Shown here: positions 6,234 through 20,425 of the stretch, in pieces
How the letters are laid out: every line of letters starts with the position of its first letter
Position numbering within the stretch: position 1 is the stretch's first letter
NCBI RefSeq assembly: GCF_004217565.1
Contig: NZ_SHLA01000001.1
Span: 3,410,001 to 3,474,000, forward strand
Source: Zhihengliuella halotolerans
GTDB taxonomy: Bacteria > Actinomycetota > Actinomycetes > Actinomycetales > Micrococcaceae
Direction of reading: 5' to 3'
DNA length: 64,000 nt
The notes under the pieces: generated by a model
What the model saw: the letters and a program-made list of their open reading frames with translations, nothing else
What the model was told of the DNA's origin: nothing
Database searches by the model: none
Translations under genes and position numbers: made by a program

Positions 6234-7253
6234 ATGATTACCCCGGATGGTGGAAACTGGCTGCAGACACCGGTCGTCGAACTGGACCGGCTGTTCCCGG
6301 ACGCGCAGGCGAGGATCTTCGCGAAGCTCGACCAGTTGCAGGTCGCCGGCAGCACCAAGGAGCGCACCGCGGCCTCACTGTTGGACGGCGCTGAGGCCGA
6401 CGGGCTCCTGCTCCCCGGCGGCACCGTCGTCGAATCGAGTTCGGGCAACCTCGGCATCGCCCTCGCCCGGCACTGCGCCCTGCGCGGCTACCGCTTCGTC
6501 GCCGTCGTCGATGAAAACGCCAACTCTGCCGCCGTGCGCATGATGGAGGCGTTCGGCGCACGCGTGGACCGCGTCGACCCGGAGGACGGCAACCTGCTCG
6601 CCGCTCGCCGGCTCCGCGTGCGCGAGCTGTTGGCCGAGATCGAGGGCGCCGTCACCACAGATCAGTACGGTTCGCGCCACAACCCGCGCGCCCACGAGAC
6701 GTCCACCATGCCGGAGTTCCTCGCCGCGGCCGGCACCTTGGACACCCTCTTCGTCGCCACCAGCACCACCGGCACGCTCGTCGGCTGCCACCGCTACGTG
6801 CGCGAGCACGGGCTGGGCACGCGCCTCGTCGCCGTCGACGCCGCCGGTTCCGTCCTCTTCGGCGGCGATCCCGCGCCGCGCCGCTTGCCCGGCCTCGGCG
6901 CCGGTGTCCTGCCAGCGCTGCACGATCACGCCGCCCCGGACGCCATCGTCCGCGTCCCGGAACCCGACATGATCTGGGGCTGCCGCCGCCTCGCCCGCAC
7001 CGAGGGCCTGCTCGCGGGCGCCTCCACCGGAGCGATCGTCGCCGCCCTGGCGCGGAGCCTCGCCGCGGACGAGGGCGCGCTCGGCGCGCGCGTCGGGGTC
7101 CTCGTGCACGATTCCGGCGTGCCGTATCTGGACACCGTGTACGACGACGACTGGGTCGCCTCCGCGTACCCGCACGTCGCCGAGGGGCTGCTCGGCGCGG
7201 GCGCGCTGGACGGGCCGCTGCCGCCGTCGTACGCAGAAAACGCGGCGCCGTGA
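6234..7253 (+). CDS. PLP-dependent cysteine-synthase-fold enzyme (SbnA-like)
   Basis: A 339-aa fold-type II PLP enzyme. The Schiff-base lysine is K42 in GSTKER (GSxKDR in cysteine synthases), the substrate loop is SSSGNLG with N72, and the phosphate-binding loop is TSTTGT. These fit the SbnA/cysteine synthase group; SbnA makes N-(1-amino-1-carboxyethyl)glutamate from O-phosphoserine and glutamate in 2,3-diaminopropionate synthesis. The start at 6234 has GAGGAGGG 4 nt upstream. Its stop overlaps the next start as GTGA. Context with a decarboxylase-type PLP enzyme and an exporter suggests an amino-acid-derived small molecule; the actual substrate is unknown. Confidence 0.8.
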   Translation: MITPDGGNWLQTPVVELDRLFPDAQARIFAKLDQLQVAGSTKERTAASLLDGAEADGLLLPGGTVVESSSGNLGIALARHCALRGYRFVAVVDENANSAAVRMMEAFGARVDRVDPEDGNLLAARRLRVRELLAEIEGAVTTDQYGSRHNPRAHETSTMPEFLAAAGTLDTLFVATSTTGTLVGCHRYVREHGLGTRLVAVDAAGSVLFGGDPAPRRLPGLGAGVLPALHDHAAPDAIVRVPEPDMIWGCRRLARTEGLLAGASTGAIVAALARSLAADEGALGARVGVLVHDSGVPYLDTVYDDDWVASAYPHVAEGLLGAGALDGPLPPSYAENAAP

Positions 7254-8881
7254 ACGCACCTGAAGTGCGCGTCGCCGTCGTCGGCGCCGGGCCGAAGGCG
7301 CTGTTCGCGCTGCAGGAACTGCACGAGCGACTGCCCTCCGACGCCCGGGCGAGTGTCGACGTTTTCGATCCGGCGCCACCCGGCGGTGCCGTCTGGGATC
7401 CGGAGTTGCCGGCAGTGCTGCGCCTGAACGCGCCGGCGGCGATGGTCGACGCGCGCTTCTCCGGCTTCGGCGAGACCCTGAGCGAGTGGATCGCGCGCAC
7501 GCACCCGGCGCACGCAGGGGAGTCGTTCCCGCCGCGCCGGATCGTGGGCGAGTACCTGGGCCTGGCCTTCGACCGGCTGGCGCGGAGCCCGCGGCTCGAC
7601 CTGCGCCACCATCGGCGCCGGATCCACGGGCTCGGTACCGGGCCGGGGCTGCTCGACGCCGACGGGTTCGACGAGGTGCTGCTGTGCACCGGGCACGCGG
7701 GGCCCGGTGCGCGGCTCCCGGAGGCCGTCGCGGCGGCGGAAGCGGGCGGGTGTGTGGACGTGCGCGGGGCAGCGCTGACCGGGCTCGATGCGGTGCTGCT
7801 GTTGACCGAAGGACGCGGCGGGCGCTGGAGCCGGATCCCCGGCGACCGACTCGGCTTGCTCGCGTACGAACCCTCCGGCGCCGAGCCCGCGCGCATCCGC
7901 CTCGTTTCGCGCACGGGGGCCGTCCTGTCGCCCAAACCCGAGCGCAGGCACCCGGAGCTGGGGCCGGTCATCGACGCGGCCACCGAGCGGATCAGGGCCT
8001 GGGCGACAGCCATGCGCGGGACGCCGGCCGGTGCGGTGCGGCCGGCGTCACCGGTGTCGCTGGATCCGCTGTGGCGAGTGCTCCTCGGCGCGGCCGCCGA
8101 AGCAGCCGCCGTCTTCGGCGTCGAGACCACCGGCCTGCGGCTCTGGCGGACGCTGCTCACCGGGCGCCCCGAACGTGACGCCGAGGTGTGGGCCGGGCGC
8201 CGGCAGGCCGAGTTCCTGCGTCAGCGGCTCGAGATCGACGCCGGGCTGCGCCGCCCCGACGAGGCGTGGATCCTCGGTCGGCTCTGGCAGGGCCTCTACC
8301 GCGAGATGGTGCGCGCACTGGACCGCGTGCCGCGCACCGCGCGCGACCAGAGGCGCTTTCGCGCCGCGGCGGCCTGCCAGGAACGCACCGCCTTCGGCCC
8401 GCCGGCGGAGACCGTGCGCAAGCTGCTTGCCCTGGTCGGCGCCGGGATCGTGGAGATCCGAGCCGGGATGCCGGCGGGGGAGTTCGTGGATGCGGTGACG
8501 ACCGGCCCCGGCGTGCTGCGCCAGCCGGTGCCGACGGCGCCCGAGCCCGCCCGAACGCCCGCCCCCGCACTGCAGGTCTCCGTGACCGACTTCCACGACC
8601 CGCTCTACGCGGACTTGCACGCCCGCGGCCTCATCAGCGTGCGGCCCGGCGAGCGAGGGCTCCTGACGGACACCGACGCCGCCTGCCTGAGACCTGACGG
8701 CCGGCGGACGGAGTGGCTCGCGTGCCTGGGCCGGCCCACGGAGGATCCCGTGCTCGGCCACGACACGCTTGACCGCACCCTGCACGCCGACGGCCGGCGG
8801 TGGGCGGCCGCCGTCGTCGAACGACTCGCCCGCCCGCAGGACCCGCGCCGCAACCCACGGAAGGAACACGCACGCGCATGA
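7250..8881 (+). CDS. FAD/NAD(P)-binding protein of the SbnA/Y4yA operon
   Basis: A 543-aa protein starting with GTG at 7250, overlapping the stop of the SbnA-like gene. The N-terminus (VAVVGAGPKALFALQEL) is a Rossmann dinucleotide-binding motif GxGxxx of the FAD_NAD_binding type; further features are LRLNAPAAMVDARFSG and an LCTGHA segment typical of these flavoproteins. The remaining part has no motif I recognise. It is translationally coupled on both sides and so probably acts in the same pathway, perhaps taking the redox role that SbnB (an unrelated NAD-dependent dehydrogenase) has in staphyloferrin B precursor synthesis. That role is inference. Confidence 0.75.
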   Translation: MNAPEVRVAVVGAGPKALFALQELHERLPSDARASVDVFDPAPPGGAVWDPELPAVLRLNAPAAMVDARFSGFGETLSEWIARTHPAHAGESFPPRRIVGEYLGLAFDRLARSPRLDLRHHRRRIHGLGTGPGLLDADGFDEVLLCTGHAGPGARLPEAVAAAEAGGCVDVRGAALTGLDAVLLLTEGRGGRWSRIPGDRLGLLAYEPSGAEPARIRLVSRTGAVLSPKPERRHPELGPVIDAATERIRAWATAMRGTPAGAVRPASPVSLDPLWRVLLGAAAEAAAVFGVETTGLRLWRTLLTGRPERDAEVWAGRRQAEFLRQRLEIDAGLRRPDEAWILGRLWQGLYREMVRALDRVPRTARDQRRFRAAAACQERTAFGPPAETVRKLLALVGAGIVEIRAGMPAGEFVDAVTTGPGVLRQPVPTAPEPARTPAPALQVSVTDFHDPLYADLHARGLISVRPGERGLLTDTDAACLRPDGRRTEWLACLGRPTEDPVLGHDTLDRTLHADGRRWAAAVVERLARPQDPRRNPRKEHARA

Positions 8882-10311
8882 ACACCACACCGACAAGGGC
8901 CCCCGTGGACAGGAGCCTCTGCGCCGGGCCGCAGCCGCTGACGGCGCGGCTCGAGCCGTGGATGCGCGACCTGCTGGCCGACCACGAGGTCTGCCGTGCG
9001 CTGATCGCAGAGCACGGTTCGCCCGTGAACGTCATCGACACCGCTCCGCTGGCGCGGAACATCGGCGAGCTGCGGGCGGCCGCCGCGGCGCACGGCGTCG
9101 ACTTCGAGGTGTACGTGGCCCGCAAGGCGAACAAGGCGCTGGCGGTCGTCGACGCGGCGCGCGCGGCCGGGGCCGGCGTCGACGTGGCGAGCGACGACGA
9201 GCTCGCCCAGGTGCTGGACCGAGGGGTCGAGCCGGAGAAGATCATCCTCACCTCCGCCGTGAAACCGCCGGCGACCCTGCGCCGCGCCCTGGACGCAGGC
9301 GTCGTCGTGAGCCTCGACAACCGCGACGAGCTCGACGACCTGCTCGCCGAGGCCGGGGCCGGCGGGGCCGACGTCGCGCTGCGCATCGCCGCGCAGACCG
9401 CCGGCGTCCGGCCCACGCGATTCGGACTGGCGCCGGCGGAATGGATCGAGGCGCTCGGCGTCGCGGGCGACCGGGTGCGGGTGGCCGGCGTGCATTTCCA
9501 CCTGCACGGGTACGCGGCCGCGGACCGGATCGCGGTGCTGGGCGAGGCGCTCGCGTTCGTCGACCGGCTGCGCGGGCACGGGCACGACGTGCGGTTCGTC
9601 GACATCGGCGGCGGCATCCCGATGACGTACCTCGACGACCGGACCCAGTGGGATGAGTTCTGGGCCGCGATGCGCGCGCGGCGTGCGGACCTGGCCGCCG
9701 GTGGAGCGCTGACCGGAGAGCTGACCTGGAACGACGACCCGCTGGGGCTCGACGGGTCCGGCGGCGTCTATCCGTTCTGGCAGGAGGCCACCCGCGGCCC
9801 GTGGCTCGAGGAGGTGCTGACCGGCCGCGTCGGCGGTACGAGCGTCGCGACGGCCCTGCGCGAGCGGGGGCTGCAACTGCGCTGCGAGCCCGGCCGCGCG
9901 CTCCTCGACGGCTGCGGGCTGACGCTGGCGTCGGTCGCCTTCCGCAAGAAGCGCGCCGACGGCGTCCCGCTCGTCGGCCTGCACATGAATCGCACGCAGA
10001 TGCGCTCGACTTCGCTCGACGTGCTCATGGATCCGCTCCTGGTGCGTCCGCCCGACGCGGCCGGCGCCGACCCCGTCGAGGCGTACCTCGTCGGCGCGTA
10101 CTGCATCGAGGACGAACTCATCCTGCGCCGGCGCCTGAGCTTCCCGGCCGGCGTGCGGCGCGACGACGTGGTCGCGTTCCCCAATACGGGCGGCTACCTC
10201 ATGCACATCATCGAGAGTGCGTCCCACCAGATCCCGCTCGCCGCCAACGTCATCCGGAGGGCGAACGGCTTCGAGGGGGACCTCATCGACGGGCCGGTCG
10301 CCGGGGCATGA
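8878..10311 (+). CDS. PLP-dependent decarboxylase-like enzyme (Y4yA / SbnH-like, fold type III)
   Basis: A 477-aa enzyme of the alanine-racemase-fold decarboxylase family. The PLP lysine is K83 in ARKANK, with the downstream markers HFHLHGY, DIGGGIP and CEPGRAL; a second active-site region VGAYCIEDE supplies the Cys and acidic residues used by ornithine/diaminopimelate-type decarboxylases. It resembles the Y4yA subfamily and SbnH, which decarboxylates a citryl-diaminopropionate intermediate. The gene starts at the ATGA overlap with the flavoprotein gene. No citrate-condensing NIS synthetase gene is present nearby, so the product is not obviously a carboxylate siderophore. Confidence 0.8.
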   Translation: MNTTPTRAPVDRSLCAGPQPLTARLEPWMRDLLADHEVCRALIAEHGSPVNVIDTAPLARNIGELRAAAAAHGVDFEVYVARKANKALAVVDAARAAGAGVDVASDDELAQVLDRGVEPEKIILTSAVKPPATLRRALDAGVVVSLDNRDELDDLLAEAGAGGADVALRIAAQTAGVRPTRFGLAPAEWIEALGVAGDRVRVAGVHFHLHGYAAADRIAVLGEALAFVDRLRGHGHDVRFVDIGGGIPMTYLDDRTQWDEFWAAMRARRADLAAGGALTGELTWNDDPLGLDGSGGVYPFWQEATRGPWLEEVLTGRVGGTSVATALRERGLQLRCEPGRALLDGCGLTLASVAFRKKRADGVPLVGLHMNRTQMRSTSLDVLMDPLLVRPPDAAGADPVEAYLVGAYCIEDELILRRRLSFPAGVRRDDVVAFPNTGGYLMHIIESASHQIPLAANVIRRANGFEGDLIDGPVAGA

Positions 10312-10364
10312 GTCGTCCGGGGCAGGATCGCGCCCGCGGAGTTCCGGCGACACGGACCCGGTGC

Positions 10365-10395
10365 TAGAGTCCTATTCCATGAATGCTTGGAATAG
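10365..10395 (+). promoter_or_regulatory. Promoter -10 and inverted-repeat operator over the start codon
   Basis: A -10-like TAGAGT (10365-10370) lies 8 nt before the ATG at 10379 and there is no Shine-Dalgarno sequence, so the message is probably leaderless. A perfect 8-bp inverted repeat, CTATTCCA (10372-10379) and TGGAATAG (10388-10395) with an 8-nt spacer, covers the transcription start and the first codons. This is a good candidate operator for the ArsR-rhodanese protein encoded here (autoregulation). Confidence 0.6.
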
Positions 10396-11038
10396 TGGAA
10401 CGGCGGAAAAGACGGACGTCTTCGACTCCTTCGCCGAGATCGTCAAGGCCGTCGCGAACGGCCGCCGGCTGGAGCTTCTCGAGCTCATGGCCCAGGGCGA
10501 GCACGCCGTGGAGGAGCTCGCCCGGGCCACGGGTGCCGCGGTCACGACGACGTCGGCGCACTTGCAGACGCTCAAACGCGCCGGGCTCGTCGCCACGCGC
10601 CGGGAGGGCAACAGCATCCGCTACCGGCTCGCGGGTGACGATGTCGCTGAGCTCTACACCGCGGCCAAGCGCGTCGCGTTGGCGCGCTCGCCGCGACTCC
10701 GCGAGGCGCTCGAGTCCTACCTAGGGCCAGCGCAGCCGGCCGCCGTGGACCCGGCCGCCGTGACCGCAGAGATGTTCGTGCTCGACGTGCGCCCGCGCGA
10801 GGAGTACGACGCGGGCCACTTCGTCTCGGCGGTCTCGATCCCGCTCGCCGAGCTCGAGGATCGCTACGGAGAGATCCCCGACGGGGTGCGTGTCGTCGTC
10901 TATTGCCGCGGCGAGCTGTGCCGCATGGCCCGCGAGGCCGCCGCCTGGCTGCGCGAGCGCGGCGTCGACGCGGCGGCGATGGTCGGCGGCGTCGTCGAAT
11001 GGCGCGCCTCCCGGGAGGTGCGTCTTGCCGTCGCGTGA
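10379..11038 (+). CDS. ArsR-type HTH fused to a rhodanese domain
   Basis: A 219-aa regulator: winged helix at about residues 15-95 (TTTSAHLQTLKRAGLVATRR recognition region) and a rhodanese domain at 130-215 (FVLDVRPREEYDAGHF; active loop YCRGELCRMA). The only two cysteines in the protein are C176 and C181, both in the rhodanese loop; the usual ArsR metal site ELCVCDL is absent. I infer a thiol, persulfide or sulfur-type sensor rather than a metal sensor. It follows the Y4yA-like gene by 67 nt, has its own promoter, and overlaps the MFS gene, so it likely controls export and perhaps the biosynthetic operon. Confidence 0.88.
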   Translation: MNAWNSGTAEKTDVFDSFAEIVKAVANGRRLELLELMAQGEHAVEELARATGAAVTTTSAHLQTLKRAGLVATRREGNSIRYRLAGDDVAELYTAAKRVALARSPRLREALESYLGPAQPAAVDPAAVTAEMFVLDVRPREEYDAGHFVSAVSIPLAELEDRYGEIPDGVRVVVYCRGELCRMAREAAAWLRERGVDAAAMVGGVVEWRASREVRLAVA

Positions 11039-12302
11039 GGTGGAGCCGGCCGCGTCCGCAGCGCCGGACGCCGCCGAGATTGCGCGCGTCCAGCGACGCA
11101 CCCTCGGCGTGGTCGTGACCAGTCAGGTCCTCGGTGGTGCCGGACTGGCTGCCGGGATCACCGTGGGCGCACTGCTCGCGCAGGACATGCTCGGCTCGGA
11201 GGGACTCGCCGGCGTCCCCACGGCCCTGTTCACCCTCGGCTCCGCGCTCGCCGCGTTCCTCGTCGGGCGCCTCACCCAACGCTGGGGCCGCCGGATCGGC
11301 CTCGGCCTCGGATTCGGTGCCGGAGGACTCGGCGCGTTCGGCGTCGTCGCAGCGGCGGTGACCGGCGACGTCGTGCTGCTCTTCGCCTCCCTGTTCGTCT
11401 ACGGGGCGGGCACCGCGACCAACCTGCAGGCGCGCTACGCCGGCACGGATTTGGCCGCGCCCGAGAAGCGCGGCACCGCCGTGAGCATCGCGTTGGTCTC
11501 GACCACGCTGGGCGCCGTCGCCGGGCCGAACCTCGTGGAGCCGCTCGGGCACCTCGCGACGGGCCTGGGGATTCCCGCGCTCGCCGGGCCGTTCCTGCTG
11601 GCCGGGGCCGCCTATCTGGCGGCCGGCGCGGCGCTGCTGGCGATGCTCCGGCCGGATCCGTTCCTGCTGGCGCGGAGCATCGAGGCCGCGGAACGGGCGG
11701 CGAGCCCGGAGACCGACGGCCCGGCGCCGCGCCCGGGCACGGGCGCGTACGTCGGAGCGGCGGTCATGGTGCTCACGCAGATCGCCATGGTCGCGATCAT
11801 GACGATGACGCCCGTGCACATGCGCGCCCACCACCACGGGCTCGGCGCCGTGGGCCTCGTCATCGGGCTGCACGTCGCGGCCATGTTCCTGCCGTCGCTG
11901 GTCACGGGCCTGCTCGTCGACCGGCTGGGCCGCATCCCCGTGGCGGTCGCCGCGGGGGTCACGCTACTCGCCGCGGGCGGCGTTGCGGCGTTCGCGCCCG
12001 GGGATTCGCTCGGGCTGCTCATCCTCGCCCTCGTGCTTCTCGGGTTGGGCTGGAACTTCGGGCTCATTTCCGGGACCGCCCTCGTGGTCGACGCGACGGT
12101 CCCGGCCAACCGCGCCCGCACGCAGGGCACTATCGACGTCGGCATCGCGCTCGCCGGAGCCGGCGGCGGGATGATGTCGGGCATGGTCATGGCCGCCACC
12201 AGCTACGCCTTCCTGTCGACGGCCGGCGGCTTCCTGGCTCTGCTGCTCATCCCGGTGCTGATCTGGGCGCACCGGTCGCGCAAAGTTCCGGTCGCGACCT
12301 GA
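11025..12302 (+). CDS. MFS transporter (probable exporter)
   Basis: A 425-aa protein with about 12 membrane spans and MFS loop signatures (VGRLTQRWGRRIGLG after span 2; VDRLGRIPVAVAAG in the second half). I choose the TTG at 11025 because GGGAGG lies 6 nt upstream; the next in-frame candidate, GTG at 11040, has poorer spacing. The start lies inside the 3' end of the ArsR-rhodanese gene, so the two are coupled. Adjacency to the PLP/flavin biosynthetic genes and a sulfur-type regulator suggests export of the product or of a toxic compound. It converges with jetC, 25 nt away, with no obvious terminator between. Confidence 0.85.
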   Translation: MPSREVEPAASAAPDAAEIARVQRRTLGVVVTSQVLGGAGLAAGITVGALLAQDMLGSEGLAGVPTALFTLGSALAAFLVGRLTQRWGRRIGLGLGFGAGGLGAFGVVAAAVTGDVVLLFASLFVYGAGTATNLQARYAGTDLAAPEKRGTAVSIALVSTTLGAVAGPNLVEPLGHLATGLGIPALAGPFLLAGAAYLAAGAALLAMLRPDPFLLARSIEAAERAASPETDGPAPRPGTGAYVGAAVMVLTQIAMVAIMTMTPVHMRAHHHGLGAVGLVIGLHVAAMFLPSLVTGLLVDRLGRIPVAVAAGVTLLAAGGVAAFAPGDSLGLLILALVLLGLGWNFGLISGTALVVDATVPANRARTQGTIDVGIALAGAGGGMMSGMVMAATSYAFLSTAGGFLALLLIPVLIWAHRSRKVPVAT

Positions 12303-12327
12303 AGCCGCCCGGGTTCACCGATCGCGC

Positions 12328-15300
12328 TCAGCGGAGCACGATGTCCGTCGCGACCGCCGGCGAGAGGCCAGTCGCCACGAAGCCGGAGACGTTGGATCCC
12401 GGGTGCTTGACGATGTCCGTGATCGAGCCCAGGTGCTTCGCCAGGTCCACCTTGTCCTCGGGAGCGGCCAGCAGCAGCTGGAACCCAAACTCCTGCAGCG
12501 CGTTGATGCCGGCGCCCGCGTACTCCGCGTTGGCCTGGATGAATGCCTCGTCGATCATCACGGTCCCGTAGGTCGTGAAGCCCTGCGTCGCTAGGCCGAG
12601 CTGGTACGCGAGCGCGGCGCCCATGATGAACGACGTGAAGCGCTGGCCCTCGCCGCCGGAAAGCGTGCCCGGCTCGAGCCCGGCCTCGATCTCGCCGTTG
12701 CCCTTGTGTTCGTTGCAGCTGATCACCACGTGGCGGCGGACGTCCAGCACGGTGTCCCGCCACGCGGCGCGCCCGGTGTCGTCGAGGGCGTCGACGAGCC
12801 GCTCGAGCCGCTCGTACTGCGCTGACAGATCGTCCGCGGCCGCGCCGTACGCGTGCCCGAGCGCCTCTTTCAGCTCCGCCTTGAAGGCCCGCGCCTCCTC
12901 CGGAACGGCCGTTGTCAGCTCGAGCCGCAGCCGCGAGCTCGTCCCGTCGGGCCCCTTCTCGAACGGCACGTCGGAGAGGATCTGGTTGAGTGGCTCGATG
13001 CGTTCGCCGATCGCCCGCCGTTCCTCCTCGAGCAGCTGCAGCAGGTCGGAGAACCGCTCGTAGGAGCGGTTGGAGAAGTACTCGCGGAACTCCTCTTCGC
13101 GCTGGGGCAGCCCCTCGGCGACGATTGATTCGTACAGCCGCACGTAGTCCGGTGCCGCGTCGACACCCGTGCCGTACGATGCCGAGGCCCCGGGCCCGAA
13201 GGTTCGCGCGAACTCGCGGAACGTCTCCGTCAGGTCGGCCTCGGCGGCGAAGATGGCCTGCCGCGCCTGCGCCTCCGCTCCCTGCAGCTTCAACGCCGCG
13301 GACGACGCCGCGGCCTCCACCTCCGCGCCGCTCGCCGCACCCGCGAGGTCGGGGAAGCGGGTGAGCAGTTCGGCGCACTCGTCCTCGGTCGCGGGGTCGG
13401 TGGCCGCGGCGTCGTCCGGGGCGGACCCGGTTCCCGCACCGGATGCGGCCGCGGGGAGGGGCGCCGCGGCGAGCCGCCGCTCGGCCGCGCTCAGAGCGGA
13501 CTCGAGCCGCGCGGCCTCGCTGCGCAGCACCGCGAGCCGGCCCACGGTCCCCTCCCGCTCGGCCTGCGCTTCCTCCAGGGCGGAGCGCACCTCCGCAAGC
13601 GAGGCGTCGTCGTTCATGACGGCCTGCAGCCGCGACTCGAGGTCGGCGACGGCCGCGGCGGCAGGAGTCGTGTCGAGGCGCGCGAACTCGCGGGCGTCAT
13701 CGGCCAGAGCGGCCAGCGCGCGCATCCGTCCGGCGAGGTCCCGGGTCGAGGCGCTGCGCTCGTCGGCGGCCGCCTCGGCTGCGTCGCGCTCGGCCGCGAG
13801 CGCTGCGGCCGACTCCTCGAGTTCGGCGATCTTGGCCTCGTTCGTGAAGCCCAGGAGGTAGTCCGAGGCCGCGATGGGCCGGGTGTCCCGCTCGAACGAT
13901 CCGCGCCCGGTCTTCAGGGTTCCGGCCAGCGAGATCGCCCGCTCGTGCTCGTGCAGCCCGGCGTCCGTCTCGACGCAGGCCAGCGGGTAGTCGGCGGTGA
14001 TCTTCGCGCGGAGCCACGCACCCGCCGCGTTGTCCTTGAACTCGAGCCTGGTCACCAGGTCGGTCGCCCCGGGGGTCGCCGGCCGGGGCGCCTGCGCGAG
14101 ATCGACCCAGCGCAGCCGCGAGCCGACCCCGTCCGCGACGCCGGAGTCGATCGCGCGCGTCACCGCCTCCAGGTGCTCGCCGGGCACGAGCAGCGTCGTC
14201 GCCAGGCGGCGGAGCGCCTTCTCCGCGGCGGGACGCCACGCGCCCGCGTCCGGGGCCAGGTCCACGAGCTCGCCGCCGAACGGCAGCGACTCCGGATCGA
14301 TCCCGGTCACCGAGCAGATCGCGCGCCGCGCGGTCGCCGAGCGGTCATCGATGTTGGACCCGCGGCGCCGGTACGAGTCGATGTCGGCCCGCAACTGCCG
14401 CAGCTTCTCGCGGGTGGCCATGACCTGGGCCATCGCTTCGTACTCGAGCGTGCGGGTGTCCTGCTCGATCGAGGAGAGCCGCCGCGCGGTCGCGGCCGCC
14501 TCGGTCCGCATCGCGGCCAGGCCTTCGGCGGTGAAATCCAGTTCGACGCCGGCGCGCCCGGCTTCCGCGACCAGCTTCGCGGCCGTTTTCTCGCGTTCGG
14601 CGAGAGCGGAGCGCGCGGTCTCGAGCTCGCGTTCTAGGGTGCGCAGCGCCTGCCCGCCGTGGGCGTCGTGCTGCTCCTGCAGGGACGTGACCCGGGCGTC
14701 CAGCCCGCTCTTCTGCCGCGCGGCCGCAGCGATCTGCGCCCGGTGCTCACCCAGCTCGGCCTCCAAGCGGGCCGCCTCGGCGCCGTGCACCTCGGCGGTG
14801 CGTGCGGCCCGCACGTGCGGCAGCACGTCGTCGTACCAGCGCTTGGCGGCGGAGCGCTCGGCGAGCAGCTCGAGATAGCGGCCGTAGCGCTCGGGCACCA
14901 GCTCGAGGGCATCGCGCTGGGCGCGGGCGGTCTCGAGTTGGCGGTGGATCCCGCGCAGGTGGGCGAAGTCCTCGACGGCCCCGTCGGCGGCCGCGAGCGT
15001 GGCCGGGGCCTCGAGCACCTCCTGGCGGAAGAAGAGGTTCACGCCGCGGTCCAGGCCCTTGCCGTTCTGCAGGGTGCGCAGCAGGCTGAACGCCTTGTCG
15101 TGGTCGATGCCGAGGCGGCGGCGGAAGCGCTCGGCGAACGTCTTGTGGGTGTCGTAGACCTCGAACCCGGTCAGCGCCTTCGACAGGGTGGACGCGGAGA
15201 AGCGGCGGGAACCGGGCTGGGCGAGCTGCTCCTCGAGAGCGGCCGTGTCGAGGGGGCCGTCGCCGATGACGTAGTGCTTGCCGACCTGGCCCTCGAGCCC

Positions 15301-15711
15301 GCCGGAGGGCACGTCGAAGAGCGCGGCGATGCACGTCTGGGAACCAAGCCCGTTCTCGTAGACGAGTCCGACGGCGCTCCACGTCGAGCCGGGGCGCTGC
15401 GCGACGACGCCGTCGGCCGTCTTGAACTGCCGCCCGCGCATGTACGAGTAGGTGGTGCGGCGGTCGCGTCGGGTCGAGGCCTCGTGGGCGGACTCGTTCA
15501 GACGCGGGAGAGCATGGAAGATGTGCCCGATGCCGTCGAACAGCGTGGACTTGCCGACGCCGGGGTGGCCCGTGAGCAGCGTGCCGTGCCGGTCGACGTA
15601 GAGGCTGTGCCGGCCGTGGAACGTGCCCCAGTTGATGACCTGGATCTCGCGCAGCCGGTGCTGGCCCGGGTTGACGGACTCGCCGAGCGGGAGGGTGTAC
15701 TCGATGCCCAT
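12328..15711 (-). CDS. jetC: SMC-like ATPase JetC (MksB-type), Wadjet/condensin
   Basis: A 1127-aa SMC-family ATPase. Walker A GHPGVGKST is at residues 48-56, long alpha-helical coiled-coil arms fill about 280-480 and 630-860, the ABC signature LSGGEGQ is at 1017-1023 and Walker B MIDEAF at 1052-1057, so the ATPase looks intact. It belongs to the MksB/JetC group of bacterial condensins that extrude DNA loops; in Wadjet systems JetABC recognise small circular DNA and JetD cuts it. It abuts jetB (stop and start adjacent). In type I systems jetD follows jetC, but here the next gene is the convergent MFS gene 25 nt away. Confidence 0.88.
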   Translation of the reverse strand: MGIEYTLPLGESVNPGQHRLREIQVINWGTFHGRHSLYVDRHGTLLTGHPGVGKSTLFDGIGHIFHALPRLNESAHEASTRRDRRTTYSYMRGRQFKTADGVVAQRPGSTWSAVGLVYENGLGSQTCIAALFDVPSGGLEGQVGKHYVIGDGPLDTAALEEQLAQPGSRRFSASTLSKALTGFEVYDTHKTFAERFRRRLGIDHDKAFSLLRTLQNGKGLDRGVNLFFRQEVLEAPATLAAADGAVEDFAHLRGIHRQLETARAQRDALELVPERYGRYLELLAERSAAKRWYDDVLPHVRAARTAEVHGAEAARLEAELGEHRAQIAAAARQKSGLDARVTSLQEQHDAHGGQALRTLERELETARSALAEREKTAAKLVAEAGRAGVELDFTAEGLAAMRTEAAATARRLSSIEQDTRTLEYEAMAQVMATREKLRQLRADIDSYRRRGSNIDDRSATARRAICSVTGIDPESLPFGGELVDLAPDAGAWRPAAEKALRRLATTLLVPGEHLEAVTRAIDSGVADGVGSRLRWVDLAQAPRPATPGATDLVTRLEFKDNAAGAWLRAKITADYPLACVETDAGLHEHERAISLAGTLKTGRGSFERDTRPIAASDYLLGFTNEAKIAELEESAAALAAERDAAEAAADERSASTRDLAGRMRALAALADDAREFARLDTTPAAAAVADLESRLQAVMNDDASLAEVRSALEEAQAEREGTVGRLAVLRSEAARLESALSAAERRLAAAPLPAAASGAGTGSAPDDAAATDPATEDECAELLTRFPDLAGAASGAEVEAAASSAALKLQGAEAQARQAIFAAEADLTETFREFARTFGPGASASYGTGVDAAPDYVRLYESIVAEGLPQREEEFREYFSNRSYERFSDLLQLLEEERRAIGERIEPLNQILSDVPFEKGPDGTSSRLRLELTTAVPEEARAFKAELKEALGHAYGAAADDLSAQYERLERLVDALDDTGRAAWRDTVLDVRRHVVISCNEHKGNGEIEAGLEPGTLSGGEGQRFTSFIMGAALAYQLGLATQGFTTYGTVMIDEAFIQANAEYAGAGINALQEFGFQLLLAAPEDKVDLAKHLGSITDIVKHPGSNVSGFVATGLSPAVATDIVLR

Positions 15712-16404
15712 CTACGCGTTCTCCTTCGTCTCGGTCGCCTCGAACAGGTCGTCGTCGACGGCGGATGCGGCGCTCGGCGCCTCGTCGAGCGGCACCGATC
15801 CGGCGTCGGTGCGTTCGATCGCCGCGAGGTAGGCGGGGATCTCGTCGATCGTCGTGAACGGCAGCGCGAGCGCCAGCGCCGCGGAGACCCGGTACTCGTG
15901 CTCGAGCTCGGTCGGCACCACGAGCTTCAGGGCCAGCAGGCGCGCCAGCGAGGAGTCGGTGAGTTCCTCGAGCCGCTTGTCGTCGACGGCGCCCGGCTGC
16001 CGGTGCTCCTCGAGGATGTCGCGGGCGCCCGCCCGCGAGATGACCGGATCCGTGCCGGTGCCGGCGTGCCGCTCGAGCAGCAGCCGCAGCCGCAGGGCGA
16101 GCAGTGTCTCCTCACGGCGCAGGGGGCGGCGCGGGGCGATCGGCGTCGTGTGCGGCTCGTCCATCTCGACCGGCGCCAGCAGCGCGATCTTGCGGTCCTC
16201 GTCGATGACCAGGTGCAGGAACAGCTCGGAGACGAACGCGGAGATGTCTTCGCGCCGGTCCAGGATCCGCTGCCACAGCTTCGCGTCTCCGGTCCCGTCG
16301 ACGTACGGCCCGCGCAGCAGCCGCACGAGCGCCTGGCGCAGGGGCAGCTCGAACCGGCCGGCGTCGCCCTCGAACAGGGCCCCGTCGGGGATGGGATCGT
16401 TCAT
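15712..16404 (-). CDS. jetB: JetB / MksE-like kite subunit (DUF4194)
   Basis: A 230-aa protein of the DUF4194 type: winged-helix segments (LRQALVRLLRGPYV; RREDISAFVSELFLHLVIDED; RREETLLALRLRLLLERH) and a variable acidic C-terminus. It is the MksE-like accessory subunit bridging the kleisin and the SMC heads. The start at 16404 overlaps the jetA stop as ATGA and its stop directly abuts the jetC start. Length is close to other JetB proteins. The call rests on order and motifs. Confidence 0.82.
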   Translation of the reverse strand: MNDPIPDGALFEGDAGRFELPLRQALVRLLRGPYVDGTGDAKLWQRILDRREDISAFVSELFLHLVIDEDRKIALLAPVEMDEPHTTPIAPRRPLRREETLLALRLRLLLERHAGTGTDPVISRAGARDILEEHRQPGAVDDKRLEELTDSSLARLLALKLVVPTELEHEYRVSAALALALPFTTIDEIPAYLAAIERTDAGSVPLDEAPSAASAVDDDLFEATETKENA

Positions 16405-17933
16405 GCTGTCTCCTCGGTTCTCGTGGCCGCGGTGCCGTGCGCGGCAGCGAATTCGGGTGCGTACGTCACGCGCGGCAGGTAGGCCGTGCGCTCGGAGCCG
16501 TCGACCTGCCGGATGTCGACGGCTTGGAAGTCGGTCGTGTCCAGGGCGGCCGCGTCGGTGATCCGGGCGAGCTCGATCAGGTACCGGACCGAGTTCAGGT
16601 GGCGGTGCTGCGGCTCGAGCGTCTCGAAGACCTCCCCGAGCGTCACCGAACGCCCGCCGCCGGCGGGCGCCGCCGTCGTGCGGGATTCCAGGGCGTGCAC
16701 GACGGCGGCGCGCAGCACGCCCGTGTCGGCGCCGGGGGTGATGGGGGTGCGGTGGATGTCGGCGGCGGAGAGGGGCGGCGGGTCGGCGAGCTTCGGCGGG
16801 GCGACGTGCTCGGCGGGGTCGAAGATGCCGAGGTCGGCGAGCGTCGCGAAGTGCGGTTCGTAGAGGCTCAGCGGCGCGACGGGCGTGCGCGGGCGCAGCG
16901 CTGGCGAGGCGGCCGTGGCGAGCTCGGCGGCGCGGATGGCACGGCGGAGCTGCTCGGACTCGCGCAGCTCGTCCGACTGGACGTAGGCGTGCAGGGACTC
17001 GGAGAGCTTTCCGTAGGTCGCATGCACCTCGGTGGCCTGGCGCCGCAGCTCACGCAACATGTTCGCGATCGTGTGGCGCTCGCCGGCGGTGAGGTCGTCG
17101 ACGAAGCCGCGCGCGAGGACCTCGGTGACGGCCTCGCGGAAGCGGGCCTGCTGGGCGGGGTCGTTGAGGAAGTCGGTGAAGCCGCGGAACGTCTCGCCCT
17201 CGGGCGTCGAGCGGAGCTGGCGGTCGCCCTCGAGCACCTGGCCGACCGCGACGCCCTTGGAGACGGAGGACTCCATGATCTCCTGGCGGATCCCGTGCAG
17301 CATCTCCTGCACGCCGTCGCGCATGCGCTTGAAGTCGGCCGGCAGGTTGGCGGCGAGGTCGAGGATGCTACGGGCGGCGGCGACGGCGCCGTCGTCGGAG
17401 AGCATGGCCGGCGCCTCGCCGCTGCGCAGCGCGTCGAGCCGGGCGCGGCGGTCGGCGATCTCGGACTCGAGCTGGCGGATGCGGGCCTCGGGGTCCGGGT
17501 CGGTCTCGTGGGCGAGGGATTCGAGGCTCGAGAGCAGTGCGGAGAGGCGGGAGGAGTTCAGGTTGGTGCCGGAGCCGGCGACGGAGTCGAGGAAGCGCAG
17601 GACGCGGGCCGTGTGCGCCGTCGGCTCGTAGACGAAGAAACCGTCGACGAGCGGACGCGCGAGGAACCCCGCCTTGACCCACGAGTCGGCGTACTGGGCG
17701 GCGCGCCAGGCGTCGTTGAGCGGGACCTCGGGGGAGTCGGCGCGCAGCTGCTTGAGGAACGTGTCGAGGCTCGCGTGGAACGCCTCGAGCGCGACGCGCG
17801 GCGCCGCGGACGTGAATTCGGCGCGCAGGAAGGCGGCGACCCAGGGCGCGGCCGAGAGGAGCTTCCACCCCGCGGATTCGCGAAAGTCCAGCTGGTCGGC
17901 CCAGGTGGCGACAGCGGGGTGGGGGAGGCGCAT
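16401..17933 (-). CDS. jetA: JetA / MksF-like kleisin (DUF3375)
   Basis: A 510-aa DUF3375-type protein. The N-terminus (SAGWKLLSAAPWVAAFLRAEF, then FFVYEPTAHTARVLRFLDS) is the conserved winged-helix part, followed by a helical, charged central region (RIRQLESEIADRRARLDALR) and a C-terminal domain (SVRYLIELARITDAAALD). It acts as the kleisin that closes the JetC ring. The start at 17933 (MRLPHPAVATW) is preferred; upstream in-frame codons are low-complexity. It is the first gene of the jetABC operon. Confidence 0.85.
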   Translation of the reverse strand: MRLPHPAVATWADQLDFRESAGWKLLSAAPWVAAFLRAEFTSAAPRVALEAFHASLDTFLKQLRADSPEVPLNDAWRAAQYADSWVKAGFLARPLVDGFFVYEPTAHTARVLRFLDSVAGSGTNLNSSRLSALLSSLESLAHETDPDPEARIRQLESEIADRRARLDALRSGEAPAMLSDDGAVAAARSILDLAANLPADFKRMRDGVQEMLHGIRQEIMESSVSKGVAVGQVLEGDRQLRSTPEGETFRGFTDFLNDPAQQARFREAVTEVLARGFVDDLTAGERHTIANMLRELRRQATEVHATYGKLSESLHAYVQSDELRESEQLRRAIRAAELATAASPALRPRTPVAPLSLYEPHFATLADLGIFDPAEHVAPPKLADPPPLSAADIHRTPITPGADTGVLRAAVVHALESRTTAAPAGGGRSVTLGEVFETLEPQHRHLNSVRYLIELARITDAAALDTTDFQAVDIRQVDGSERTAYLPRVTYAPEFAAAHGTAATRTEETA

Positions 17934-18006
17934 GCGGTGCTTTCTCGAGACGAACAAGTGGCGGACGTCCGCCCTGGTGCCGGGCCTGCTCGCGCCCGGG
18001 CATCCG

Positions 18007-18012
18007 ATTCTA
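18007..18012 (-). promoter_or_regulatory. Candidate -10 element for jetABC
   Basis: On the minus strand TAGAAT lies about 75 nt before the jetA start and fits a sigma-70-type -10; no convincing -35 was seen. This would give a leader of roughly 65 nt. Confidence 0.35.
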
Positions 18013-18056
18013 GGCCACGGTGCTGAACACGCGCTGGTCGAAGTGCTCTGCGCCTC

Positions 18057-18082
18057 AACACCGTGCGCGAACACCGTGCGCG
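18057..18082. repeat. 13-bp perfect tandem duplication
   Basis: AACACCGTGCGCG occurs twice head to tail (18057-18069, 18070-18082), with a partial related copy near 18025. It lies between the jetA promoter region and the end of the DUF1206 gene. It may be a replication-slippage duplication; a binding site is possible but unsupported. Confidence 0.6.
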
Positions 18083-19039: not shown

Positions 19040-19066
19040 TTTCTCATGTTCGACAAAGAGGTGTAC

Positions 19067-20425
19067 ATGACCGCGTGGTCCCTGTTTACCGATCTTGGCT
19101 GGATCTGCGCCCTGCTGCTCGTGGGCGCCTTCCTGCGCGCCAAGGTGCCGTTCATCCAGAGCATCTTCCTGCCGTCGAGTCTCATCGCGGGGGTCCTGGG
19201 CCTCGTGCTCGGCCCGAAGATGCTCGGGATCATTCCCTTCTCCTCGGAGATCTCCAGCTACGCGGGTGTCTTGATCGCCGTGGTCTTCGCCGCCTTGCCG
19301 TTCACCTCCAAGGTGGCCTCGCTCAAGGGCGTAATGCGGTCCGTGGGGACGATGTGGGCGGTGTCGCAGTCGGCGGTGGTCCTGCAATGGGGTGTGGGGC
19401 TGCTCTTCGCGCTCGGCGTCGTCAGCATCTTCTTCTCCTCGGTTCCGGACGGTTTCGGGCTGATGATCGCCACGGGATTCATGGGTGGGCACGGCACGGC
19501 CGCCGCCATCGCCGAGAGCTTCGGCGACCGCTGGCCCGAAGCGGCGAGCCTGGGCATGACGGCCGCGACCGTGGGCATCATCGTCTCCGTCGTGGGCGGC
19601 ATCATCCTCATCAAGATCGAGTCCATGCGCGGCAACACGGTCTATCTCTCGCATTTCAAGGACCTGCCGCGCAGCCTGCGCACGGGCATGATCGAACCAG
19701 AGAAGCGAGAATCGATCGCCTCAAGCCCCGTCTCCTCGATGTCGATCGACCCGATGATCTACCACGCCGGAGTCCTCTTCGCGATCGCCGGTCTCTCCTA
19801 CGTGATCTCCGACTGGGCCGGGTCCATGGTGGAGGGCCTGAACATCCCGACCTTCTCCGTCGCGTTCATCGTCGGGTACCTGGTGTTCGGCGTGATGACC
19901 AAGGCCGGCGCCCTGCGCCACTTCGACACCCGGCTCTTCGAACGCACCTCGAGTTCGTCGACCGACCTGCTGGTCGCGTTCGGGATCGCCTCGATCGACC
20001 CGGCCATTGTCGTCGCCTACGCCGGACCGCTCGCGCTGCTGATGGTCTTCGGGATCGTCGCGATGGTGGGGTTCTACTTCTTCGTCGCCAAGCGCTTCTT
20101 CACCGACCACAAGGTCGAGCAGTCCGTTTTCACGTGGGGCTGGGGCACGGGAACGGTCGCGATGGGGATCGCCCTCCTGCGCGTCGTCGACCCTCAGATG
20201 CGATCCAAGACCCTCGACTACTACGGCCTGGCCTACATCCCCATCGGCTTCGGCGACATCGCCTTCGTCGCGTTGCTGCCGGCGCTGATCATGGCCGGCC
20301 TGGCCTGGCCGGCGGCGATCACGCTGACTGTCGCCGGGGTCGCGATCCTCACCGCAGCGAGGCTGCTGCGCCGGAAGGGTGCGCAGTCGCCGGACGAGGT
20401 CAAGGTCCCGGCCGCCGTCGACTGA
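19067..20425 (+). CDS. Sodium/glutamate symporter-like membrane protein (GltS family)
   Basis: A 452-aa protein with about ten to twelve membrane spans and two inverted half-repeats; the motif GFMGGHGTAAAIAESF matches the glycine-rich re-entrant hairpin of GltS-type carriers, mirrored by FTWGWGTGTVAMGIALLRVVD. It would import glutamate or a related dicarboxylate with sodium. The start at 19067 is supported by AAAGAGG just upstream; an ATG seven codons earlier lacks a ribosome site. It stands alone, preceded by a leader hairpin. Confidence 0.8.
   Translation: MTAWSLFTDLGWICALLLVGAFLRAKVPFIQSIFLPSSLIAGVLGLVLGPKMLGIIPFSSEISSYAGVLIAVVFAALPFTSKVASLKGVMRSVGTMWAVSQSAVVLQWGVGLLFALGVVSIFFSSVPDGFGLMIATGFMGGHGTAAAIAESFGDRWPEAASLGMTAATVGIIVSVVGGIILIKIESMRGNTVYLSHFKDLPRSLRTGMIEPEKRESIASSPVSSMSIDPMIYHAGVLFAIAGLSYVISDWAGSMVEGLNIPTFSVAFIVGYLVFGVMTKAGALRHFDTRLFERTSSSSTDLLVAFGIASIDPAIVVAYAGPLALLMVFGIVAMVGFYFFVAKRFFTDHKVEQSVFTWGWGTGTVAMGIALLRVVDPQMRSKTLDYYGLAYIPIGFGDIAFVALLPALIMAGLAWPAAITLTVAGVAILTAARLLRRKGAQSPDEVKVPAAVD

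Follow-up and report, generated by a model that had tools for sequence, protein, structure and literature searches.

Three tightly packed genes for an SbnA-like pyridoxal phosphate (PLP) dependent ligase, a flavoprotein and a Y4yA-type PLP decarboxylase raise the question of which reaction sequence they encode, and of whether the regulator and transporter genes that follow them belong to it. The genes lie in a 64,000-nucleotide stretch of DNA from the actinobacterium Zhihengliuella halotolerans (NCBI RefSeq assembly GCF_004217565.1, contig NZ_SHLA01000001.1, positions 3,410,001 to 3,474,000 of the forward strand), which is referred to here as the window; the source genome consists of 3.58 Mb in one contig and contains a single Y4yA match. 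A first-pass annotation had described a possible new biosynthetic pathway encoded by a fully coupled operon of the three enzymes, hereafter the trio, followed by genes for its own regulator and exporter. All five genes are present where it had placed them. The coupling holds for the first three, in which the GTG start of the flavoprotein gene overlaps the ligase stop (GTGA) and the decarboxylase start overlaps the flavoprotein stop (ATGA), but not for the arsR gene, which is separated from the decarboxylase stop by 67 untranslated bases and carries an inverted repeat at its start. From the sequences we propose that the trio may constitute a stand-alone three-enzyme route of ligation, N-oxygenation and decarboxylation, a reading to which we give slightly less than an even chance.

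The trio is a conserved unit. Genome contigs were scanned with the decarboxylase, which yielded 67 loci from named records, mostly of Corynebacterium and also of Rothia, Galactobacter, Arthrobacter, Propionibacteriaceae and Micropruina. In 61 of the 67, the three genes keep the order ligase, flavoprotein, decarboxylase on one strand, and one of these (L013) has a 1.6 kb gap 3' of the ligase; four of the remaining six are cut at a contig end and two (L069 and L071) are fragments. This retention of order exceeds chance and makes a fortuitous association unlikely. The first-pass annotation had named homologues that are never co-located as the outcome that would speak against its proposal; they clearly do occur together, and the proposal is supported to the extent that the three enzyme genes form a conserved, coherent set. 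The closest named relatives of the operon are found in records titled Kocuria polaris and Zhihengliuella salsuginis, and the trio is also plasmid-borne in Sulfitobacter and Tsukamurella. Its spread is patchy: of 394 genomes of the class, 4 (the source genome among them) matched the flavoprotein at E 1e-10, and in one of these four (G221) the ligase and decarboxylase are not nearby. At other loci, the single neighbours that were scanned belong to unrelated families, for instance a photolyase, a DNA polymerase IV-type protein, a peptidase or a glyoxalase. The wider counts given below refer to 73 fetched loci that hold both the flavoprotein and Y4yA, 69 of them with a ligase match; this set counts one plasmid twice (as L093 and L142), some loci near contig ends have only short flanks, and short duplicate loci (below 4800 bases, L047 excepted) were omitted from the gene table. 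Within the open-licence literature, no printed account of the trio was found.

Among proteins of solved structure, SbnA of Staphylococcus aureus scores best against the ligase (5d84, E 1.9e-53). Residues R125, Y145 and S177 of the window ligase align with R132, Y152 and S185 of SbnA, which we take to be the signature of O-phosphoserine use. Among 70 trio-type rows, the window included, the positions of K42, R125, Y145 and S177 are kept in 70, 70, 69 and 69, respectively. In contrast, the three signature residues (R, Y and S) occur in 4, 2 and 0 of 12 ligases from loci with an SbnB/cyclodeaminase-type enzyme (SbnB-type loci, a partial sample in which 22 of 39 listed places were taken with their surroundings). 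The corresponding counts are 2, 0 and 0 of two ligases of an octopine-dehydrogenase type, and 0, 11 and 0 of 11 ligases of a fourth type.

The flavoprotein, which the first-pass annotation had left undefined, gave no match to NCBIfam at E 0.001, and the PDB, searched with this one sequence, returned nothing up to E 1. By predicted fold and by profile it groups with the L-aspartate N-hydroxylases (FzmM/CreE). Foldseek placed the L-aspartate N-hydroxylase 8cp2/8cp5 first for its AlphaFold model (pLDDT 89.3) at E 1.6e-28, the first other enzyme following at 2.4e-6, and the overall fold, with its FAD, NAD(P) and helical domains, agrees with 8cp2. A family profile built on alignment A3 (40 flavoprotein rows, 39 of them distinct, L034 having been entered twice) matched 8cp2 among PDB sequences at E 2.3e-43. 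In the L-aspartate N-hydroxylase, Asn62 lies in the catalytic centre and the aspartate is bound by an arginine cluster, as reported in PMC10404684. The equivalent of Asn62 is N60 of the window protein, and an asparagine occupies this position in all 40 rows. Some of the basic substrate-site positions may be common to both as well: the Arg13 equivalent (position 16) is Arg in 32 rows, Lys in 7 and Ser in 1. The trio flavoprotein differs in having a lysine (K229, in 40 of 40 rows) at the position of Arg266, a pairing made by hand one residue beyond the end of the printed alignment, and also in its NAD(P) motif and in a loop that some members lack. An assignment as opine dehydrogenase was considered and rejected; no such enzyme is among the 50 fold matches listed, the best of which are the N-hydroxylase and flavin monooxygenases, along with a few reductases.

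The solved relatives of the Y4yA-type protein are decarboxylases and their kin. In alignment A2 (23 rows covering all Y4yA types) the invariant residues include K83, H208, G244-246, EPG 337-339 and C409, and R340 is kept in at least 90% of rows; we take K83 to be the PLP lysine, and the EPGR motif and the catalytic cysteine C409 to be those of the fold. In a quick, midpoint-rooted tree of 97 Y4yA rows, from which L036 and entries below 400 aa were omitted, the trio-type enzymes form one group with an SH-aLRT of 100. This group comprises 70 flavoprotein-type rows and L011, whose contig starts inside the operon. The SbnB-type and octopine-dehydrogenase-type groups have values of 98 and 100, and a long-branch warning applies to the fourth type. 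The flavoprotein and decarboxylase occupy a single open frame in 37 of the 65 loci holding both, a count that takes in L066, with a frame change near its end, and the contig-edge pieces L021 and L043. On a 68-row tree (L036, L063, L069, L092, L142 and entries below 400 aa omitted) the fused or split state changes five times, with at least four changes forced by supported branches. Because they are repeatedly fused, the flavoprotein and decarboxylase probably act together, and the fusions are strong evidence for a joint function. The predicted structure of a natural fusion, from L015 (pLDDT 87.1, pTM 0.84), matches decarboxylases first and the aspartate N-hydroxylase at rank 50 with E 1.1e-18; SbnH (6knh) is also among its fold matches. 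The fusion gene is disturbed in a few records: L066 and L071 lie on one C. wankanglinii contig, and together with L069 they exhibit the frame change in L066 and separate 3' fragments elsewhere.

From these families we infer the substrates, the order of the last two steps, the product and the biological role of the proposed route. The ligase would couple the amino group of L-glutamate, as SbnA does, or of L-aspartate to an aminoacrylate formed from O-phospho-L-serine, giving an N-(2-amino-2-carboxyethyl)-amino acid that resembles N-(1-amino-1-carboxyl-2-ethyl)-glutamic acid (ACEGA). The flavoprotein would then oxygenate a nitrogen of this product; the glutamate or aspartate part of the product resembles the aspartate bound by the related N-hydroxylase. 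In a variant of this step, two oxidations, as in that relative, could lead to a nitrone, loss of 2-oxoglutarate and N3-hydroxy-diaminopropionate. Finally, the Y4yA-type enzyme, which in many loci shares one frame with the flavoprotein, would take off an alpha-carboxylate to leave an N-oxygenated compound of the ethylenediamine type. Ligation to glutamate or aspartate followed by N-oxygenation and decarboxylation is preferred since it accounts for all three enzyme families as well as for the fusion.

Several observations weigh against this reading. The window ligase matches the SbnA equivalog model TIGR03945 at E 5.8e-99 with 331 bits, below the cut-off of 349.95, and is hence designated only as SbnA-like. 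Superposition of the flavoprotein on 8cp2 gives a TMq of 0.61 and an rmsd of 11.6 over 662 columns, so that the domains are placed differently; the equivalents of Arg276, Arg409, Arg412, Asn413, Arg416 and Arg577 could not be aligned with a mid-domain profile (A4) against 8cp2. Where 8cp2 has the NAD(P)-binding stretch RGLGLN, the window protein has RGAALT; the second glycine is replaced by alanine in 40 of 40 rows, and the TEGRGG...SGxEP loop is missing in 14 of the 40, so NAD(P)H-driven oxygenation may fail in some members. L145 is a PF13454-type relative (27-28%) near which SbnA and Y4yA were not found, and L177 is, by annotation, another with neither nearby. No exporter probed on the fetched flanks (MATE and MFS probes) is common to the trio loci, and no metal-response signal was found upstream of the trio. 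With a Zur consensus, no box was found upstream in the 67 trio loci or the window; the best match (L035) has three mismatches, a score that 2 of 30 random segments drawn from that locus also reached; the best DtxR match in trio loci has 7 mismatches of 19, and none stood out. Metal-starvation control, considered as a candidate, was rejected on these grounds. The 69 upstream segments share no inverted repeat whose 7-base arms are exact.

These last results bear directly on the alternative that the trio is a metallophore operon of the aminopolycarboxylate type, such as those for ethylenediaminedisuccinic acid (EDDS) and ethylenediaminesuccinic acid hydroxyarginine (EDHA), in which the flavoprotein would replace the SbnB/cyclodeaminase-type enzyme and add or reduce the second arm. 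An order-wide search, in which 27 of 348 genomes matched at E 1e-25, led to locus L131 of genome G1019, which we take to be that of the EDDS producer Amycolatopsis japonicum, in keeping with a Zur-like box. L131 (about 7595-12411) contains an SbnB/cyclodeaminase-type enzyme, Y4yA, an SbnA-like enzyme and a MATE exporter in that order, with the Zur-box-like site (two mismatches) upstream, and is the probable EDDS locus. A 335-aa open reading frame beside its SbnA gene was considered as an MFS gene and rejected, as it matches no family and the exporter of L131 is the MATE gene. EDDS synthesis is reported to be under Zur control (PMC6103462, PMC9252823, PMC4993170), and the EDHA operon genes are described as AesA-AesD (PMC10702961). 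Like the aes cluster and L131, the trio combines a Y4yA decarboxylase, an SbnA-like enzyme and a redox enzyme in one operon. In addition, antiSMASH 7 includes an aminopolycarboxylic-acid class (PMC10320115), this class is listed for skin corynebacteria (PMC12542688), and an EDDS-like cluster is reported in the C. striatum pangenome (PMC10486106). C. striatum ATCC 6940 has one Y4yA match at E 1e-5, which belongs to the trio, and because this strain has no other Y4yA match the C. striatum report probably rests on the trio; EDDS-like calls in corynebacteria may thus be based on the trio operon. However, the flavoprotein belongs to another superfamily than the SbnB/cyclodeaminase-type redox enzyme, the ligase signature kept in the trio is mostly absent from SbnB-type ligases, and the Y4yA enzymes fall in separate tree groups, those of the window and L131 being 33% identical in A2. 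A MATE exporter accompanies 11 of 12 SbnB-type loci but 0 of 73 trio-type loci, and the Zur-like box of L131 has no counterpart in the 67 trio loci. An EDDS/EDHA-type operon is considered unlikely.

The proposed route must also be set against a supply of diaminopropionate or ethylenediamine, in which the flavoprotein would act as an amine oxidase or dehydrogenase in the place of SbnB, splitting ACEGA into diaminopropionate and 2-oxoglutarate before the decarboxylase forms ethylenediamine. Staphyloferrin B of S. aureus offers the model: the trio shares the ligase signature with SbnA, its closest solved relative, and SbnH, which is likewise a PLP decarboxylase and has the fold of the Y4yA type, is reported to supply the diaminoethane part of staphyloferrin B (PMC3179956); the departures from the NAD(P) motif and the loss of the loop would also suit an enzyme independent of NAD(P)H. 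Against such a supply, the top structure matches of the flavoprotein, an addition relative to the staphyloferrin system, are flavin monooxygenases, and its catalytic-centre asparagine is invariant. The first-pass annotation had noted that the synthetases of the siderophore pathways independent of nonribosomal peptide synthetases (NIS) and the SbnB-type dehydrogenase are missing: neither the IucA/IucC type, the expected consumer, nor the SbnB/cyclodeaminase type was found in any of the 73 loci with the probes used, and those neighbours in the window that were scanned encode other things. We regard this supply role as rather improbable. Very unlikely, in our view, is an aspartate-nitrosuccinate pathway in which free aspartate would be converted to N-hydroxyaspartate or nitrosuccinate for use by the ligase and decarboxylase. 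The group to which the flavoprotein belongs and the CreE/CreD pathway (PMC11705231) are its precedents, but the partner here is a PLP decarboxylase and not a nitrosuccinate lyase, unlike in SpiED, a known CreE/CreD fusion (PMC11705231), and no CreD-like lyase is among the single neighbours scanned at some loci, in a search that was not systematic. The reading in which the ArsR-rhodanese and MFS genes serve as regulator and exporter of a five-gene pathway appears the most improbable of all. As far as the loci were examined, the pair adjoins the operon only in the window and its closest relative; it does so in L006 and also in G1062, the two possibly being one organism, but L006 is the only one of the 73 loci with both homologues, and L047 has no more than a rhodanese-like match. 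The MFS gene (P0005-like) was matched at E 1e-40 in 32 of 59 relatives searched, the window's own genome included, and 4 of 11 MFS-positive genomes searched for Y4yA were positive. In G1061, G1063 and G1080 it lies away from the operon (clearly in G1063 and G1080, and on different contigs in G1061), with no ArsR or MFS match within about 1.5 kb 3' of Y4yA; in the congener G1064 it is present and Y4yA was not matched. L159 (G1096) holds an ArsR-MFS pair with the operator ATTCCATGAATTCATGGAAT, nearly identical to that of the window, in a genome where Y4yA was unmatched. Since the pair occurs without the operon or apart from it in relatives, it is regarded as an independent module, and both genes were excluded as pathway members.

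The features of this part of the window are collected in the table below.

Coordinates of the trio and of the adjoining ArsR-MFS module in the window
Feature	Start	End	Strand	Remarks
SbnA-like PLP ligase	6234	7253	+	339 aa; PLP lysine K42; expected O-phosphoserine user
Flavoprotein	7250	8881	+	543 aa; PF13454; L-aspartate N-hydroxylase (FzmM/CreE) group
Y4yA-type PLP decarboxylase	8878	10311	+	477 aa; PF02784; fold type of ornithine/diaminopimelate decarboxylases
Inverted repeat ATTCCA-N8-TGGAAT	10374	10393	.	over arsR start codon; probable ArsR operator, separate module
ArsR-family regulator with C-terminal rhodanese domain	10379	11038	+	NF033788 above cut-off; PF00581; judged outside pathway
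MFS transporter	11025	12302	+	PF07690; TTG start, alternative GTG at 11040; judged outside pathway

Further along the window, the minus strand at 12328-18074 encodes the type I Wadjet components JetA, JetB and JetC, and JetD_C (PF09983) has no match anywhere in the source genome at E 0.001. Also near the operon, 19046-20425 gives a weak match to a sodium/glutamate symporter family (PF03616, 51 bits). At other trio loci (L019, L022, L054, L059, L063, L064, L065 and L066), long genes of cluster c40 (up to about 863 aa) are found near the operon; the two that were scanned, both in L059, are ABC-2 type membrane proteins and represent a possible export route. In L019, L020, L026, L027, L029, L035, L038, L040, L049 and L067, a TAAGAT/TAGAAT-like -10 hexamer stands a few bases 5' of the ligase ATG, a position that, judged by eye on 17 printed segments, matches the expectation for leaderless transcripts.

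Y4yA enzymes also occur in other contexts. The first-pass annotation had likened the trio to the gene set around y4yA on plasmid pNGR234a of Sinorhizobium fredii NGR234. The likeness extends to the Y4yA (31% identity) and SbnA-like, cysteine-synthase-type (33%) enzymes and an MFS gene, but in place of the flavoprotein, which has no match there, the NGR234 operon has an octopine/nopaline dehydrogenase and an IucA/IucC synthetase. In L095 (7468-14513, pNGR234a) the genes are ParB-like, Y4yA, cysteine-synthase family, octopine/nopaline dehydrogenase, IucA/IucC and MFS, and L098 holds a y4yA operon of the same make-up with an MFS-like match. Both resemble an opine-type cluster combined with an NIS siderophore cluster, which in NGR234 adjoins type III secretion genes. 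In a fourth context, Y4yA is accompanied by a homologue of class V aminotransferases (L083, L087, L088, L089, L096, L137, L138, L143, L144, L146, L148 and L149); most of these loci contain a PALP enzyme about 440 aa long, which in L083 ends in a rhodanese domain, and L088, L089, L137, L138 and L149 also contain a relative of an HMA-domain protein.

The trio would represent a compact, testable pathway, carried by many corynebacteria as well as by Rothia, Galactobacter, Arthrobacter and Propionibacteriaceae, and its fusion of an N-hydroxylase-like flavoprotein with a decarboxylase is an unusual enzyme that lends itself to production and assay by itself. The redox step beside the SbnA/Y4yA pair is exchanged among at least three enzyme types, namely the flavoprotein, the SbnB/cyclodeaminase type and octopine dehydrogenase. 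The analysis also suggests that corynebacterial EDDS-like annotations may name the wrong product. Tentatively, and with more doubt than confidence, we propose that the trio could define a widespread, unrecognised class of actinobacterial metabolites, N-oxygenated ethylenediamine-type amino acids whose synthesis would rest on an O-phosphoserine-dependent ligase and an N-oxygenase fused to a PLP decarboxylase, that current genome mining perhaps files as an EDDS-like metallophore.

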